Position numbers and translations under genes: made by a program. Positions 1 to 5,553 of a DNA stretch of 5,675 nucleotides are shown here, piece by piece. The notes beneath the pieces are model-generated. The model was given only the letters and a program-made list of their open reading frames with translations. It did no database searches and was not told where the DNA came from. The stretch is from Chloroflexota bacterium (GTDB lineage Bacteria; Chloroflexota; Limnocylindria; Limnocylindrales; CSP1-4), in contig JAKAHX010000135.1 in the NCBI GenBank assembly GCA_021814735.1, forward strand, positions 1-5,675. The letters are read 5' to 3'. Numbering within the stretch: the stretch's first letter is position 1; each line of letters begins with the position of its first letter.

Positions 1-315
1 GCGGCGCGAGAACGGGGGCACGCCCGGCACCGCGACCGAGCGCATGGTGCGAACCAGGTGGTCTGCCGCTGCCTGGAGCCGCCGCTCCCGCTCCACCGGG
101 GAGATGGCCGTGGTGCCCGCACCCCTTCCGCTCGCTGTCGGGGCGGTGGGCGCCGGCACGGCTTGCCATCCCTGGAGAATCACGCGGCGGCGGGCCAGCG
201 CCGCACGCCGGCGCTGGGCGGCCCGGCGCGCGGCGCTGCCGGGCGACGACGGGCGCGGGTGACCGGGCCCCGCGTCCCCGCGGGACCCGGCACCGATGTA
301 CGTCTCGGAAACCAT
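1..315 (-). CDS. Uncharacterised protein, N-terminal 105 residues (partial, runs off left edge)
   Basis: An open frame runs from an ATG at 313-315 to the left edge without a stop and is clearly GC-ending in third positions. The ATG follows a strong GGAGG (321-325) with 5 nt spacing. The visible part has a Gly/Pro/Ser-rich start, an Ala/Arg-rich basic stretch (about residues 28-44), a Pro/Ala/Thr linker (53-70) and a charged, probably helical segment ISPVERERRLQAAADHLVRT (71-90). There is no membrane helix or recognisable catalytic motif so far. A GTG at 157-159 with AGGGA upstream is an alternative start; the ATG is preferred because its ribosome binding site sits exactly in the switching arm of the upstream riboswitch. 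It lies downstream of eno on the same strand, about 100 nt away. Function is unknown; the leader implies fluoride-induced translation. The missing C-terminus could hold a transporter or enzyme domain. Confidence 0.62.
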   Translation of the reverse strand, partial: MVSETYIGAGSRGDAGPGHPRPSSPGSAARRAAQRRRAALARRRVILQGWQAVPAPTAPTASGRGAGTTAISPVERERRLQAAADHLVRTMRSVAVPGVPPFSRR

Positions 316-348
316 GACAGCCTCCGCACCGATGTGCAGAGGCTGTCA
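315..348 (-). promoter_or_regulatory. RBS-sequestering hairpin: translational expression platform of the 337-401 riboswitch
   Basis: On the minus strand, positions 348-334 (TGACAGCCTCTGCAC) pair with 329-315 (GTGCGGAGGCTGTCA) around a 4-nt ATCG loop. This gives 15 continuous pairs with one U-G wobble (338 with 325). The right arm contains the GGAGG ribosome binding site and the A of the start codon. The left arm contains the AGCCTC strand that the aptamer needs for its pseudoknot, so the two structures exclude each other. On the plus strand the wobble would be a C/A mismatch, which supports a minus-strand RNA. No U tract follows, so translational control is more likely than termination. Confidence 0.8.
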
Positions 349-401
349 GCGTCATGAGCGGATCGTCGGCGACACCGACCGGGCGAGCCTCATCGCCCGG
401 T
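337..401 (-). promoter_or_regulatory. Fluoride riboswitch aptamer (crcB motif), upstream of the left-edge gene
   Basis: Read on the minus strand from 401, a 9-bp stem (ACCGGGCG[A] with [T]CGCCCGGT) closes a loop containing GATGAGGCT. The loop strand GAGGCT (391-386) is perfectly complementary to AGCCTC (344-339), which sits in CTGACAGCCTCTGC, matching the conserved 3' element (CUGAUG...CCUCUAC type). Between them lies an extra hairpin GTCGG/CCGAC. The usual second stem just before CTGACA is weak here, and the closing element reads CTGC rather than CTAC, so this is the most divergent of the three copies. The family senses fluoride and normally turns genes on. Confidence 0.83.
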
Positions 402-405
402 GCGT

Positions 406-411
406 ATCCTA
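406..411 (-). promoter_or_regulatory. Possible -10 element (TAGGAT) for the leader transcript
   Basis: TAGGAT on the minus strand ends 5 nt before the aptamer stem begins at 401, so a start 6-8 nt downstream would begin the RNA at the aptamer. The plus-strand riboswitch has the same arrangement with TAGAAT. It lies just after the eno stop codon. No convincing -35 is seen. Read-through from eno is the alternative source of transcription. Confidence 0.3.
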
Positions 412-419
412 CCAGCGCA

Positions 420-1836
<1,417 letters not shown>

Positions 1837-1878
1837 AGGCCGGACGGCCCGACGACGGCCCACGGGATGGCCAGGCGC

Positions 1879-1884
1879 TAGAAT
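1879..1884 (+). promoter_or_regulatory. Candidate -10 element (TAGAAT) of the riboswitch-controlled operon
   Basis: TAGAAT matches five of six bases of TATAAT and ends 7 nt before the first aptamer base (1892), which places the transcription start at the riboswitch 5' end. No clear -35 is visible around 1856-1861. Confidence 0.42.
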
Positions 1885-1890
1885 CCCGGT

Positions 1891-1951
1891 CGGCGATGAA
1901 GCCCGCCTGTCGCGTCGGCGACGACCTGCGGTTCCGCTGACGGCTTCTACC
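1891..1951 (+). promoter_or_regulatory. Fluoride riboswitch aptamer (crcB motif), upstream of the 1978-3884 operon
   Basis: GGCG (1892-1895) and CGCC (1904-1907) close the loop ATGAAGCC. Loop strand GAAGCC (1898-1903) is perfectly complementary to GGCTTC (1942-1947) in CTGACGGCTTCTACC, giving the pseudoknot. Both conserved blocks closely resemble the well-studied Thermotoga-type aptamer (GGCGAUGAGGCCCGCC and CUGAUGGCCUCUAC), with the pseudoknot pairs changed in a compensating way. A short stem GCG/CGC with loop GTTC (1928-1937) precedes CTGACGG. An additional hairpin, GTCGC-gtcg-GCGAC (1909-1922), is inserted in the linker. The best sequence match of the three copies. Confidence 0.92.
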
Positions 1952-1976
1952 TCGATCGCGGAAGCGAGAGGTGGAG
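1945..1976 (+). promoter_or_regulatory. RBS-sequestering hairpin: translational expression platform
   Basis: TTCTACCTC (1945-1953) pairs over 9 bp, including two U-G wobbles, with GAGGTGGAG (1968-1976), which contains the ribosome binding site of the ATG at 1978. Inside, TCGC and GCGA (1956-1959, 1964-1967) close a GGAA (GNRA) tetraloop after a two-base GA bulge. The left arm shares bases with the aptamer's pseudoknot strand, so ligand binding should free the ribosome binding site. Both wobbles would be A/C mismatches on the opposite strand. Confidence 0.75.
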
Positions 1977-1977
1977 C

Positions 1978-2472
1978 ATGTCCGAACCGAACATCCAGGC
2001 AAGGGCGCCCGTGACCGACGGCAAACCGGGTGCCCGCGGGCTCGAACAGGACCCTGCGGGCGGCGAGGGGCCGTCGCGCTTCTGCCCCACCTGCTACGCG
2101 ATCAACGCCTGGAGTCGCGTCACCTGCGAGCGCTGCGGCGCGCCACTCGAGACGACCCGGGACTTCGATGCCGGGCTGATCTGGGCGCTCGACCATCCCG
2201 ACACCGCGACCGCCATGCTGGCGGCCCGCGTGCTCGCCGAGCGGCGCCAGGAGCAGGCGATCGAGCCGCTCGCCCGCCTGGCGCGCAGCCAGGGTGATCC
2301 CTACCGGGCCGCGGCCGCCGTCCGGGCGCTCCGGGCCTTTGCCGGGAACGCCACCGCGGATGCCTGCGTGGAGGAAGCGCGGCGTCATCCCTCGGTGATC
2401 GTGCGCCGTGCCGCGACCGACGGTGCCGCGGCGGGACCGGTGGGCGTGGGATCGGTGGGAGACGCGCGATGA
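1978..2472 (+). CDS. Zinc-ribbon plus HEAT-like repeat protein, function unknown
   Basis: A 164-residue soluble protein. After a disordered, charged N-terminus, four cysteines form a zinc-ribbon (C36-P-T-C39 and C50-E-R-C53-G). Residues about 63-147 are a helical stretch with HEAT/Armadillo-like spacing: HPDTATAMLAARVLAERR, then EQAIEPLARLARSQGDPYR, then AAAAVRALRAF and HPSVIVRRAATDG. This suggests two to three repeats in a small scaffold. HEAT modules generally bind proteins; no enzymatic motif is seen. The ATG follows GAGAGGTGGAGC, and that ribosome binding site lies in the switch hairpin of the fluoride riboswitch. Its stop overlaps the next gene's start as ATGA (2469-2472), so the two are probably co-translated. 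The name is by architecture only; the role in fluoride stress is inferred from the leader. Confidence 0.88.
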   Translation: MSEPNIQARAPVTDGKPGARGLEQDPAGGEGPSRFCPTCYAINAWSRVTCERCGAPLETTRDFDAGLIWALDHPDTATAMLAARVLAERRQEQAIEPLARLARSQGDPYRAAAAVRALRAFAGNATADACVEEARRHPSVIVRRAATDGAAAGPVGVGSVGDAR

Positions 2473-3884
2473 ACACGGTGGAACTGGCCGTCGACGAGGC
2501 GCTCGGCCCCGGGCTGGACGTGATCGTCGACGCCGGCGTGGCGCGGAGTGTCGGCGGACGGGCCGGCGGCCTCTGGCTCGGCCTGGACCGCGCGCACCTG
2601 GTCGAGTCCGACGACGGCCAGGGGGTCCCGATCCCCGCCGTGGTTGCGCTGCCGGCATCGAGCTTTGCCGGATGCCGCGTGGAGGCCGAGCTGGTCGGGG
2701 CCCTGGCGGACGGCGACCGCACCATCCTGGTGGGAGCGCTGCCCGGGCAGGCCCCGCCATCCGAGGCGGTGGTGCGGGCCGTGGCACGCGCGCACGACGG
2801 GGCCTGGCTGGACGCCACGGCCGCGGACCGCGTGGCCCGCGAGGCGCGCCAGCGCTACCGGGTGCGACGGCAGGCCGGCCGCGTCCACGGCGGACGGGCA
2901 TGGCAGGCGGCCGGGGACGATCCGGCCCAACGGCGCTTCACCACGCCGTACTCCCAGGCCGAGTACCGGCTGGATCGCCTCCCGCCGCGCTTCGGCCGCG
3001 GGCTGGAGGGGCTGCTCGACGAGGACGAGCGGCTCATCTACGCCATCGAGCGTCCCCCCGACGCGCTCCGCGGCGGCCGGCTCGGGCTCGCCCGGCGTGG
3101 CGCCGAGCGCCGGGCAGGGCTGCTGCTCCTGACGGACCGCCAGCTGATCTGGATGGTCGACCACATGCCGCCCGACCGGTACCTCATGGACTGGGGCGTG
3201 GACGCCCGCCTGGTCGCCATCGAGGCGCTGCGAGAGGTCCGATTGACCGGCGACGATGTCATCGAGCTGCACATGCAGACGCGGGGCGGGGGCGCGCGCT
3301 TCCCGCTCCCCGGCGAGCTGCGGGCGGAGGCGGAGGTCCTGCGCGACCTGGTGGCCAGGTTCCTGCCGCGTCCCGGCATGACCGCCCTCCTGCGCCGGTA
3401 CGCGCCGGCCGCCGTGGAGTTCGACGCCGCCCCGGCATCGCTCTTCCGGCAGGGTCCGGATGCCGTCCGGGACGTGGCAGCGCTGCGCGCGGCGGTCGCC
3501 CCCGAGGAGCTCCTCGCCGCGTTCTACGCGCCACGGCGCGAGGGGCACCCGGAGGTGAGCGTCATCGGGGTCACCGGCTCGCGCATCGCGCTCCAGCAGC
3601 GTGGCGCGCTGCAGGTGATCGGGCTGTCCGAGTTGCGCGACATCTCGATCACGCTGTCGCCGCTCGTCGGGCGCGTCGAACTGGCGTCGTCGTCCTCGTC
3701 GTCCGACGCGCGGACCGCGACGTTCACCTACCCGGCCACGATGGCCGCCGGCGCGACCACGCTCCTGCGGGTGCTGCGACGGGCGTGGGCCGACTGCGCG
3801 TCCGTTGGACCGGTTCGCGACGAGGGCACCGCGGGGCGGTCGCGGTCCGAGCACGACGACGGCGCGCGCCTGCGGGTCGCCTGA
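2469..3884 (+). CDS. Protein with pyrophosphatase-like N-terminus and tandem PH-like domains, function unknown
   Basis: 471 residues, no signal peptide or membrane helix. Residues 1-150 resemble a degenerate family I inorganic pyrophosphatase in the order of elements: DVIVDAG near the start, DDGQGVPIPAVVALP (48-62), FAGCRVEAELVGAL (66-79, compare PGxxVExRPIGVL), TILVGALPG (85-93, compare KIxAVP) and YRVRRQAGRVHGGRAW (130-145, compare the YKDLEGK...GW tail). Most of the acidic metal ligands appear absent, so it may bind rather than hydrolyse. Residues about 180-300 and 343-441 look like two bacterial PH-like domains, each starting with an 'xExLL/DERLIYA' strand, then 'LLLLTDRQLIWM' or 'SVIGVTGSRIALQQ', and ending in a long helix. 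A polyserine run (407-412) lies in the second. It is translationally coupled to the zinc-ribbon/HEAT gene and shares its riboswitch. Coding is certain; the domain assignments are by eye. Confidence 0.88.
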   Translation: MNTVELAVDEALGPGLDVIVDAGVARSVGGRAGGLWLGLDRAHLVESDDGQGVPIPAVVALPASSFAGCRVEAELVGALADGDRTILVGALPGQAPPSEAVVRAVARAHDGAWLDATAADRVAREARQRYRVRRQAGRVHGGRAWQAAGDDPAQRRFTTPYSQAEYRLDRLPPRFGRGLEGLLDEDERLIYAIERPPDALRGGRLGLARRGAERRAGLLLLTDRQLIWMVDHMPPDRYLMDWGVDARLVAIEALREVRLTGDDVIELHMQTRGGGARFPLPGELRAEAEVLRDLVARFLPRPGMTALLRRYAPAAVEFDAAPASLFRQGPDAVRDVAALRAAVAPEELLAAFYAPRREGHPEVSVIGVTGSRIALQQRGALQVIGLSELRDISITLSPLVGRVELASSSSSSDARTATFTYPATMAAGATTLLRVLRRAWADCASVGPVRDEGTAGRSRSEHDDGARLRVA

Positions 3885-3909
3885 ACTGCGCGGGTCGCCC
3901 GGACTGCGC
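3870..3909 (+). repeat. Short degenerate tandem repeat across the stop codon of the 471-residue gene
   Basis: CTGCGGGTCGCCTGAA (3870-3885) is followed by CTGCGCGGGTCGCCCGGA (3886-3903) and the start of a third copy, CTGCGC (3904-3909). Copy 1 includes the TGA stop. It looks like a local slippage duplication of the gene's last codons. No function is evident. Confidence 0.45.
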
Positions 3910-3932
3910 TGGCGGGCGGTCGCAGGGCGGGT

Positions 3933-3952
3933 GGCGCGCGGCGCGGCGCGCC
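3933..3952. terminator. GC hairpin between convergent genes, possible bidirectional terminator
   Basis: GGCGCGC (3933-3939) and GCGCGCC (3946-3952) form a perfect 7-bp stem with a 6-nt loop in the 69-nt gap between the plus-strand operon and the minus-strand gene ending at 3954. There is no T tract on either side, so termination is inferred from position and stem stability only. Confidence 0.35.
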
Positions 3953-3953
3953 C

Positions 3954-4715
3954 TCAGCCGACGAGTCCCAGGATCGACTGCCATCCTGCGCACCAGCCGA
4001 CGGCGCCGAGCAGCGCCGCCCGGTCCGCGGGCATGTCCAGCCCGCGGTTCGCCCACCCGAAGGAGCGGGCGTAGGTCCGCAGGTGGCGGGAGAGCAACGC
4101 GACCAGCCGCCGCTGCTCGGGCAGGGCGGGACCACCGGGCGCCCGGAGCTCGGCCGCGAGGTGGAGCCGGCACCGGAGCGGTGACCCGTTCCCCGCGCAT
4201 GCCCCGCAGATCCACGGTTCCCACTGCGGGCGCGTCTCGAGGGCCAGGCGCCGCAGCGGTGCGAGATCGCGCCCCCGCGCCACGACCTCCTCCGGCACCG
4301 AGTCGACCTGCGCCCGGTGGGACGTGTCCGGGTCGCAGACGGGGCATGGCTCCGCGTCCAGGAGGTACGCCGCGACGCGGGAGCGCTCGAACAGTCGCCG
4401 CGGAGCGAGGGCGCGCACGGCACGGTCGAAGACGTGATCGTAGACCACCGCCGGCCGGAACATCCACCCTTCGTTGAGCGACGCCTCCACGGCCAGGAAC
4501 CCCAGCGCGTGACGCTGGCACATCCCCCAGGCGCCCAGCAGACGCACCTGCTCCTGCGGCTCGTCGATGGCGCCGGCACCCAGCCAGGCCAGGTAGCGGA
4601 CCTCGCCGTCGGCCAGCGGCGGGCGCAGGGGGTCGACGTGCCCCGCCTGCGCCGCTTCGTCCGTGACCATCGTTCCAGCCGTGTCGTTGCCCCCCATGCC
4701 GGGTACGCGCCGCAC
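3954..4715 (-). CDS. Cys/His-rich protein, possibly DUF6062-related, under fluoride riboswitch control
   Basis: 253 residues, soluble, no signal peptide. Metal-ligand-like motifs are C66-Q-R-H69 (GMCQRHALGFL), C124-P-V-C127, C170-G-A-C173 and C182-R-L-H185. This resembles a family in which a CPxC pair is followed by a helical stretch and a GxCxRHA motif (DUF6062-like, recalled by eye, not searched). The protein reads as two such halves: the first has CxxH but VDPLRP (28-33) where CPxC would be expected; the second has CPVC and CRLH plus an extra CGAC. The start is a GTG at 4713-4715 with GAGGGG 5 nt upstream; ATGs at 4697 and 4670 are alternatives with weaker sites. It lies about 100 nt after a terminator-type fluoride riboswitch and should be induced by fluoride. 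Biochemical function is unknown; a metal-binding or redox role is possible. Confidence 0.88.
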   Translation of the reverse strand: MRRVPGMGGNDTAGTMVTDEAAQAGHVDPLRPPLADGEVRYLAWLGAGAIDEPQEQVRLLGAWGMCQRHALGFLAVEASLNEGWMFRPAVVYDHVFDRAVRALAPRRLFERSRVAAYLLDAEPCPVCDPDTSHRAQVDSVPEEVVARGRDLAPLRRLALETRPQWEPWICGACAGNGSPLRCRLHLAAELRAPGGPALPEQRRLVALLSRHLRTYARSFGWANRGLDMPADRAALLGAVGWCAGWQSILGLVG

Positions 4716-4771
4716 GCCGGCCCCTCGCTGCCACCGTCGAGGACCCCCTCTCGGGCGACACGTTACCGGTC

Positions 4772-4793
4772 GGGCGCTACATCACCGGCGCCC
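4772..4793 (-). repeat. Inverted repeat in the leader of the 3954-4715 gene
   Basis: GGGCGC (4772-4777) and GCGCCC (4788-4793) can form a 6-bp stem with a 10-nt loop, between the riboswitch terminator and the GTG start. No role is evident. The rest of 4716-4828 holds no gene that I can see. Confidence 0.3.
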
Positions 4794-4818
4794 CCGGGAG
4801 GCCCATGTTGCGCCCGCA

Positions 4819-4853
4819 GGAACGAAACGGCTCCTGGTCCACGACCAGAAGCC
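4819..4853 (-). terminator. Intrinsic terminator: transcriptional expression platform of the 4845-4892 riboswitch
   Basis: On the minus strand GGCTTCTGGTC (4853-4843), loop GTG, GACCAGGAGCC (4839-4829) form a fully paired 11-bp stem with one U-G wobble (4849 with 4833), followed by the U-rich tail GTTTCGTTCC. The 5' arm starts with the GGCTTC that the aptamer uses for its pseudoknot, so aptamer folding with fluoride should prevent termination. On the plus strand the wobble becomes an A/C mismatch and no T tract follows, fixing the orientation. Confidence 0.88.
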
Positions 4854-4892
4854 ATCACCCAGCGACCGGGAGCGGCGCGAGCTTCATCGCGC
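4845..4892 (-). promoter_or_regulatory. Fluoride riboswitch aptamer (crcB motif), upstream of the 3954-4715 gene
   Basis: Minus strand: GCGCG/CGCGC closes the loop ATGAAGCT. GAAGCT (4885-4880) pairs with GGCTTC (4853-4848) with one terminal U-G. A second stem, CCC/GGG with loop GGTCGCT, directly precedes TGATGGCTTCTGG, matching the canonical UGAUGG element. At about 48 nt it is the most compact copy and lacks the extra linker hairpin of the other two. The final conserved CUAC reads CTGG here, which fits its double role as terminator arm. A possible -10 is TACCCT at 4913-4908 (weak). Confidence 0.9.
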
Positions 4893-5046
4893 GATTCGAT
4901 TGGCGGCAGGGTACCGCATTCCCCTCCGAACGATCCGCGGCAGCCGCCCTGGCCCCTGGGCAAGCCCCCGGGCAGGGCCTGTGTGGGCGTGCCACCCTCG
5001 ATGCCGGCGCCCCACGATGGACGGGCCGTCCGCCGGTGCCGTGCCG
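4893..5046. other. Intergenic stretch between the HIT gene and the third riboswitch; no gene seen
   Basis: All six frames here read as low-quality, compositionally biased protein without conserved motifs. It contains a tandem pair of near-identical small palindromes (4952-4974) and a possible weak -10 (TACCCT, 4913-4908 minus) for the riboswitch transcript. No tRNA, SRP RNA, RNase P or tmRNA signature was recognised. Confidence 0.6.
4952..4974. repeat. Tandem pair of small GC palindromes
   Basis: GCCCCTGGGCA (4952-4962) and GCCCCCGGGCA (4964-4974) differ by one base and are separated by one base. Each is itself a GCCC-nn-GGGC palindrome. They lie downstream of the HIT gene and upstream of the third riboswitch. 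They could be a protein-binding site, a weak terminator or chance in GC-rich DNA. Confidence 0.4.
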
Positions 5047-5439
5047 TCAGTGCCAGTACACGGCCCGGTCGGGGAGGATCCAGCGCACGCCGCCTCGAGG
5101 GTCGGACCGGTCGCCCAGGTAGCGGGGGATGAGGTGCAGGTGGACGTGTCCGATGGTCTGGCCGCCGGCTTCTCCGACGTTGACGCCGAGATTCCATCCG
5201 TCCGGGTGCCGATCGGACGTGATCCGCTCACGGACTCGCCCGGCGAGCGCGACGATCGCGGCCTGCTCCTCGGACCCGAGGTCGAACCAGTCCGCGACGT
5301 GCCGCCTGGGGAGAATGAGCGTGTGGCCGGGCGACACCGGGAAGGCATCCGGGATCGCAACCGCCAGGTCAGCCGCGTCGATCGGCGACGTCCGCGCGAT
5401 CGCCGCGCAGAGCGGACAGGCTTCCCGGGACTCGTTCAT
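5047..5439 (-). CDS. HIT-family nucleotide hydrolase/transferase
   Basis: A 130-residue cytosolic histidine-triad protein. Key features are an N-terminal CPLC pair (Cys8, Cys11), VSPGHTLILPRRH (35-47), NLGVNVGEAGGQTIGH (83-98) and the defining triad H98-V-H100-L-H102-L-I, with His100 as the expected nucleophile. Family members hydrolyse AMP-linked substrates such as nucleoside phosphoramidates or dinucleoside polyphosphates; the exact substrate cannot be read from sequence. The ATG at 5437-5439 is chosen because GAGGGG lies 9 nt upstream and the protein then begins at the conserved CPLC region. An upstream TTG at 5506-5508 would add 23 non-conserved residues. No fluoride riboswitch was found in its own leader, but it is upstream of, and on the same strand as, the third riboswitch and its gene. 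Confidence 0.95.
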   Translation of the reverse strand: MNESREACPLCAAIARTSPIDAADLAVAIPDAFPVSPGHTLILPRRHVADWFDLGSEEQAAIVALAGRVRERITSDRHPDGWNLGVNVGEAGGQTIGHVHLHLIPRYLGDRSDPRGGVRWILPDRAVYWH

Positions 5440-5553
5440 GCCGTGTCGCCCCTCGTCATCTCCCTCGCGCGGCAGGTGGCCCCGCAGCGGGTACCCGGAC
5501 AGGCGCAACGTCCTGCCGGGATCCGCTCCGGGGCGTCAGTCAATGGGCCGGGC

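Follow-up and report, generated by a model that had tools for sequence, protein, structure and literature searches.

Three fluoride-riboswitch-type elements on one Chloroflexota contig, part of a likely fluoride-response island in a genus without recognisable FluC

Introduction

Why should three RNA elements that look like fluoride sensors lie within less than 5 kb of a single contig, each in front of a different gene? The question arises from an earlier note on a Chloroflexota bacterium (GenBank assembly GCA_021814735.1, contig JAKAHX010000135.1), which proposed three fluoride riboswitches controlling three transcription units and, on the premise that such switches normally occur singly, a dedicated fluoride-response island. 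This premise is too strong: M. extorquens DM4 harbours at least 10 fluoride riboswitches according to the accessible part of PMC6785547, and among 400 sampled Chloroflexota genomes, 121 had a match to the Rfam family RF01734 at E ≤ 1e-4 and seven had at least four. Published partners of the class include mutS (PMC2864571) and enolase (PMC11139923), and translational representatives are described for B. pseudomallei and P. syringae (PMC13273304), in each case in the available excerpts of these sources.

Here, we analysed the entire contig (C125, hereafter the window; 5,675 nucleotides), which belongs to a genome (G000) of 2.14 Mb, 390 contigs and 79% completeness, together with seven further genomes of its genus (G001 to G007), more distant relatives and a sample of the phylum.

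Results and discussion

Three fluoride-riboswitch-type elements in the window

The three elements, named RS1 to RS3, are located at positions 335–400 (minus strand), 1889–1951 (plus strand) and 4844–4894 (minus strand). In each, a P1 stem is capped by an AUGARGCY loop and followed, after a linker, by a strand that forms 6/6 pseudoknot pairs with this loop. A descriptor of the architecture spans 397–337 (minus), 1892–1949 (plus) and 4891–4846 (minus), on the strands and close to the coordinates originally proposed, and the three pseudoknot pairings put forward at that time were correct, the third containing a G-U pair. The P3 stem of RS1 is imperfect and was left uncounted by the descriptor. 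The window yields three matches (scores 11, 11 and 10), its 400 dinucleotide-shuffled versions none; at a looser cut, two matches were found in 1.78 Mb of triplet-block-shuffled sequence from relatives.

The check suggested in the earlier note, namely that all three elements should score above threshold with RF01734, failed, as each stays under the gathering score of 34 bits: RS2 reached 27.8 bits (E 1.2e-4; 1883–1956, plus), RS1 17.5 bits (E 0.26; 406–330, minus), and RS3 was absent from the matches at E ≤ 10. A hold-out model (R2), for which we used 23 elements that all come from other species to avoid circularity, gave 63.3 bits for RS1 (E 1.1e-19), 67.5 bits for RS2 (E 4.7e-21) and 39.2 bits for RS3 (E 7.5e-12), while the next-best match in the window scored 12.0 bits (E 0.005). 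At the level of sequence, descriptor and hold-out model thus confirm the presence of three fluoride-riboswitch-type elements despite the failed Rfam threshold. Further Rfam matches within the window (mir-1258, AS1890, mir-3155, mir-4429, mir-192) were below cut-off (E 0.43 to 9.3) and were dismissed as chance.

Genes and predicted expression platforms

RS1 precedes an open reading frame at 1–315 (minus), 105 aa until the contig end, which encodes an unknown protein (no match in Pfam or NCBIfam). In the sister species G001, the corresponding gene codes for 130 aa, and behind it lie a 77-aa gene, a metallophosphoesterase gene and a CYTH-like gene, as read from gene order and Pfam with the CYTH match under the Pfam cut-off. 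The enolase gene eno (420–1724, minus; TIGR01060 610.6 bits, Enolase_N and Enolase_C) shares its strand with RS1, upstream of which it lies, and is divergent from RS2; it sits between the two elements and is downstream of neither. RS2 is followed by two genes, the first of which (1978–2472, plus) encodes a HEAT-repeat protein (HEAT_2 over cut-off at 33.7 bits) whose N-terminus may hold a zinc ribbon, the zinc-ribbon matches being under cut-off. The second (2469–3884, plus) encodes a 471-aa protein with a pyrophosphatase-like and two PH-like domains. Downstream of RS3, a gene at 3954–4715 (minus) encodes an all-helical protein of 253 aa with invariant Cys/His pairs. Upstream of RS3 lies a HIT-domain gene (5047–5508, minus; domain search), a place occupied in G001 by a peroxiredoxin-looking gene, as judged by eye.

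The proposed position of every element 5' of a gene, overlapping its own expression platform, holds insofar as the pseudoknot strand overlaps a strong downstream hairpin at all three sites. A terminator found no backing from a simple promoter and terminator scan, which called nothing in the window. Behind RS1, a 15-bp hairpin (315–348, minus; ΔG −30.0) re-pairs 6/6 pseudoknot nucleotides, with 0/100 shuffles as good; its predicted stem absorbs the pseudoknot strand together with GGAGG and extends to the start codon. The hairpin of RS2 (1939–1982, plus; ΔG −23.9; 5/6 re-paired; 0/100 shuffles as good) is predicted to form between CUACCUC plus the pseudoknot strand on one side and GAGGUGGAG plus part of the start codon on the other. 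RS3 is followed by an 11-bp hairpin and then GUUUCGUUC (4829–4853, minus; ΔG −25.6; 6/6 re-paired; 1/100 shuffles as good), a terminator-like arrangement with a short U-tract that the terminator scan did not call. We assign RS1 and RS2 to a translational and RS3 to a terminator class.

Among the 43 elements that we analysed across genomes, 36 re-pair at least five of six pseudoknot nucleotides in a downstream hairpin. The remaining seven re-pair four (G002:C72 30034 and 14269, G007:C80 5086, G003:C332 2647), three (G000:C326 1400) or two (G005:C57 2061 and G096:C53), and for 7/43 elements shuffles do as well in at least 10 of 100 cases. When the aptamer strands were held single in the prediction, GGAGG of RS1 and GAGGUGG of RS2 remained largely paired, and the opening concerned mainly the region of the start codon. 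Competition of the platform for the pseudoknot strand is thus predicted for all three elements, and release of the ribosome-binding site only partly.

These folds suggest a simple mechanism. Fluoride binding would lock the aptamer and keep the pseudoknot strand out of the hairpin, which in RS1 and RS2 is predicted to hide the translation start and in RS3 to end transcription. Without the hairpin, the gene or operon belonging to each element would likely be switched on.

A six-element island in the genus

A degenerate pattern search across 101 genomes, in which the reversed pattern yielded no match, detected six elements in G000 (contigs C125, C110 and C326), three of them in the window. Counts for G001 to G007 were 6, 6, 5, 3, 2, 0 and 5, of which those for G004, G005 and G006 mean little because these genomes are 60–61% complete; beyond the genus, four genomes had any element. 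With a further model (R1), built with these sequences and counting matches of at least 39 bits (28.5 bits or less were taken as noise), G002 and G003 rise to seven elements each. G002 holds one additional canonical element (RF01734 32.2 bits), and G003 carries four elements on one 3.2-kb contig, one of them directly upstream of eno.

In G001, all six elements are located on one contig (C82, 11789–22354), within 10.6 kb, and the six elements of G000 match them one for one by gene partner, namely a gene of the MFS family, a MutS-like pair, a 199-aa gene, the 130-aa operon, the operon of HEAT and 471-aa genes and the 253-aa gene. The elements of G000 mirror a one-contig cluster, so that the word island was well chosen; the claims of three transcription units and of clustering are likewise supported. 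We consider it likely that the six elements form a fluoride-response island.

Related clusters, located with Rfam, occur in distant Chloroflexota outside the genus. One in G203 (C30) contains relatives of the same genes (dynamin 41%, MutS pair 53% and 54%, MFS 65%), and another in G271 (C46) combines four riboswitches with an MFS gene (70%) and a 253-aa-like gene (43%); in the latter, a FluC-like gene follows two genes on from the MFS gene, with another riboswitch between them. G000 itself scores zero in the RF01734 survey of 400 genomes, and all six of its elements are below the Rfam cut-off. The Rfam model thus undercounts, and fluoride regulons in this phylum are therefore larger than annotation suggests.

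Partner genes

Residues 1–135 of the 471-aa protein are predicted to adopt the fold of family I pyrophosphatases and are followed by the two PH-like domains. The catalytic Asp cluster of family I inorganic pyrophosphatases, which we take to be DGDPLD, is lost: the site aligns to dGrelp in the profile and reads QGVPIP in the protein of the window. For this reason we call the domain pyrophosphatase-like only. A homologue with 67% identity exists in Candidatus Limnocylindrales, and the protein is not widespread (8/400 genomes at E ≤ 1e-15); two of the seven 471-aa loci submitted to Rfam had a fluoride match within 1.5 kb. The 253-aa protein has 15 homologues, the window's own cluster included, and all 15 sequences were aligned. 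Its structure model (mean pLDDT 87.5) had no PDB match at E ≤ 0.001. The MutS-like pair matches only the C-terminal ATPase part of MutS and was found at L049:4073-7197 (G001), L177 (G203:C30) and L183 (G465:C109). These two MutS-domain-V proteins of 500–530 aa stay together beside fluoride riboswitches in distant families.

Candidate exporters

None of the eight genus genomes had a match to the fluoride exporter FluC (PF02537) over the profile cut-off, with G003 showing one match under it (17.6 bits). The family was over cut-off in 37 of the 101 genomes of the relatives search and in 10 of 14 controls, and the chance that all eight genomes miss FluC through incompleteness, obtained by multiplying their missing fractions, is about 2e-6 if all carried it. 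A FluC gene immediately 3' of a riboswitch is frequent in other genera, e.g. in G032, G042, G008 and G053. CLC genes are present in seven of the eight genus genomes, and a fluoride-selective CLC-F that serves as the missing exporter may be among them.

The MFS gene occurs in 66 of the 400 sampled Chloroflexota genomes. Phylum-wide, 21 of 67 places are within 10 kb of a listed fluoride riboswitch compared to 0.42 expected, a figure that includes riboswitch matches listed to E 1.8e-6, uses rounded sizes and ignores kinship. Ten of 31 MFS loci submitted to Rfam are preceded within 1 kb by a fluoride match in the same orientation, and the lineage model found an MFS-linked element in G007 and G002. 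All six genomes with the MFS gene in the relatives search are without FluC match. MFS loci beside fluoride riboswitches include L049:2510-3787 (G001:C82), L191, L192, L193, L196, L197, L208, L209, L210, L216 and L147; a relative in G080 had no nearby element. We regard the MFS family as a candidate fluoride exporter or tolerance gene.

For G000 itself, the exporter idea rests on relatives, because the copy on C110 looks internally deleted and no element lies within reach of its paralogue (56% identical) on C132. The C110 copy (L051), which follows the element at 4120–4178, appears by eye against G001 to be internally deleted and to run towards a NUDIX frame.

Conservation, position 41 and alternative readings

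In the 29 genus elements used for this count, all 290 cells of P1 and pseudoknot are paired, a value reached by 0/500 shuffles, whereas slid structures pair 40–51%. Both-sided changes occur in only 2/10 pairs, a level that 182/500 shuffles also reach, and covariation therefore rests on few columns. U7, G8, A40 and U48 are kept in 36/36 genus elements, so that the A40-U48 contact, the fluoride-locked linchpin in the accessible text of PMC8752731, is intact throughout. The pair A6-U38, which by our own renumbering we equate with the long-range reverse Watson-Crick pair A5-U35 in the excerpt of PMC8004769, is A-U in 34/36 elements and G-C in the same two of 36. The two G-C cases are G002:C72 38768 (L043:18768-18834) and G003:C123 193 (L091:193-259); they probably reflect one event. 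Could the elements be copies of a dispersed repeat that look like the aptamer through common descent and have no switch function? Copies inside one genome are indeed alike, but the same gene partners are kept across species, two different platforms are used and pairing is kept in every cell, including the co-change at A6-U38. We thus rejected this reading as highly improbable. The clustering, in turn, might reflect ordinary gene order, i.e. unrelated operons that each happen to carry a fluoride switch. Judged by eye, the genes flanking the G001 cluster resemble housekeeping genes (kdp, MoxR, tRNA synthetases and similar ones), and the elements are distributed over two or three contigs in the draft assemblies of G002, G003 and G007. 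The confinement of all six G001 elements to 10.6 kb of one contig and the differently arranged clusters in G203 and G271 speak for an island instead, and we rate the chance of mere gene order as fairly small.

A challenge to a common ligand comes from position 41, which is C in RS1 and RS2 and U in RS3. With the classes assigned from the letters after the pseudoknot strand, C41 occurs in 22 of 25 translational and U41 in 10 of 11 terminator-class elements of the genus, while all 19 descriptor-readable aptamers elsewhere in the phylum have U41 (26 loci were brought in by Rfam, of which seven were unreadable). According to the available excerpts, U41 is highly conserved and a U41A mutant of the B. 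cereus switch is unresponsive (PMC11077080), and the corresponding U (U38 in PMC8004769) makes contacts that fluoride strongly stabilises. We have thus filed RS1 and RS2, judging by their letters, as U41C variants of the class and not as proven members. One might go further and argue that fluoride sensing is confined to the terminator class (RS3, U41), the C41 elements RS1 and RS2 having lost or changed their ligand or needing much higher fluoride. We consider this rather unlikely, since gene partners cross the class boundary: G000, G001 and G004 serve the 253-aa gene with a terminator-class element, G007 with a translational one, and for the MutS pair the element is translational within the genus and of the terminator class in G025. 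Moreover, every other contact position is kept in the C41 copies, C41 recurs once outside the genus, in the class member G096:C84 13630, and the mutant in the available part of the published work carries A41, which differs from C41. In the OFF hairpins predicted for RS1 and RS2, the C at position 41 is paired close to the start codon, which may explain the change.

We thus prefer, with a probability of roughly 0.8, the reading that three fluoride-riboswitch-type aptamers each gate their own gene or operon via a hairpin that takes up the pseudoknot strand, and that they are half of a six-element set matching the sister-species cluster. The sequence shows the aptamers with their conservation and pairing, their overlap with strong alternative hairpins, the clustering, the gene families assigned by domain search and the lack of a FluC match over cut-off in eight genus genomes. 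We infer that the ligand would be fluoride, that the elements would act as ON switches, that binding would persist in the C41 copies and that the genes under their control would protect against fluoride.

Comparison with known systems and implications

RS1 to RS3 share with the transcriptional RF01734 switches (crcB motif) of B. cereus and T. petrophila the P1 stem with its AUG loop, the pseudoknot, the A40-U48 linchpin and a hairpin that overlaps the pseudoknot strand, and RS3 in addition shares U41; they differ in longer linkers and sub-cut-off Rfam scores, and RS1 and RS2 in C41 and the translational platform. The translational switches of B. pseudomallei and P. syringae, compared here by their description in the source excerpt, likewise act without terminator, whereas our locus has C41 and several copies. 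M. extorquens DM4, compared by switch count alone as given in the accessible part of PMC6785547, also carries many fluoride switches in one genome; the lineage studied here differs in that the sister species has six of them in only 10.6 kb and that no FluC match was found. As in the published enolase, pyrophosphatase and mutS operons (excerpts of PMC11139923 and PMC2864571), fluoride-sensitive enzymes or MutS-like genes lie beside fluoride switches, but here the pyrophosphatase-like domain is without the signature Asp and fused to PH-like domains, and there is one switch per operon. A literature search with limited reach into subscription journals found no paper on a Chloroflexota fluoride island. 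As far as our searches reach, novelty lies in the tight packing of the elements without FluC, in the C41 subclass and in the candidate genes.

But, why should a bacterium maintain so many sensors? A possible and as yet tentative scenario, on balance doubtful, is that a FluC-less lineage employs at least six RNA sensors, with U41 terminator and C41 translational classes tuned to different fluoride levels, to drive MFS as replacement fluoride exporter, accompanied by the MutS-like pair and a dead pyrophosphatase-PH protein as damage sensor or decoy. The natural U41C variant raises the question whether a residue thought to be essential is replaceable. The locus names candidates, i.e. the MFS family, the MutS-like pair, the pyrophosphatase-like PH protein and the Cys/His protein, and points towards a way in which bacteria without recognisable FluC may survive fluoride.
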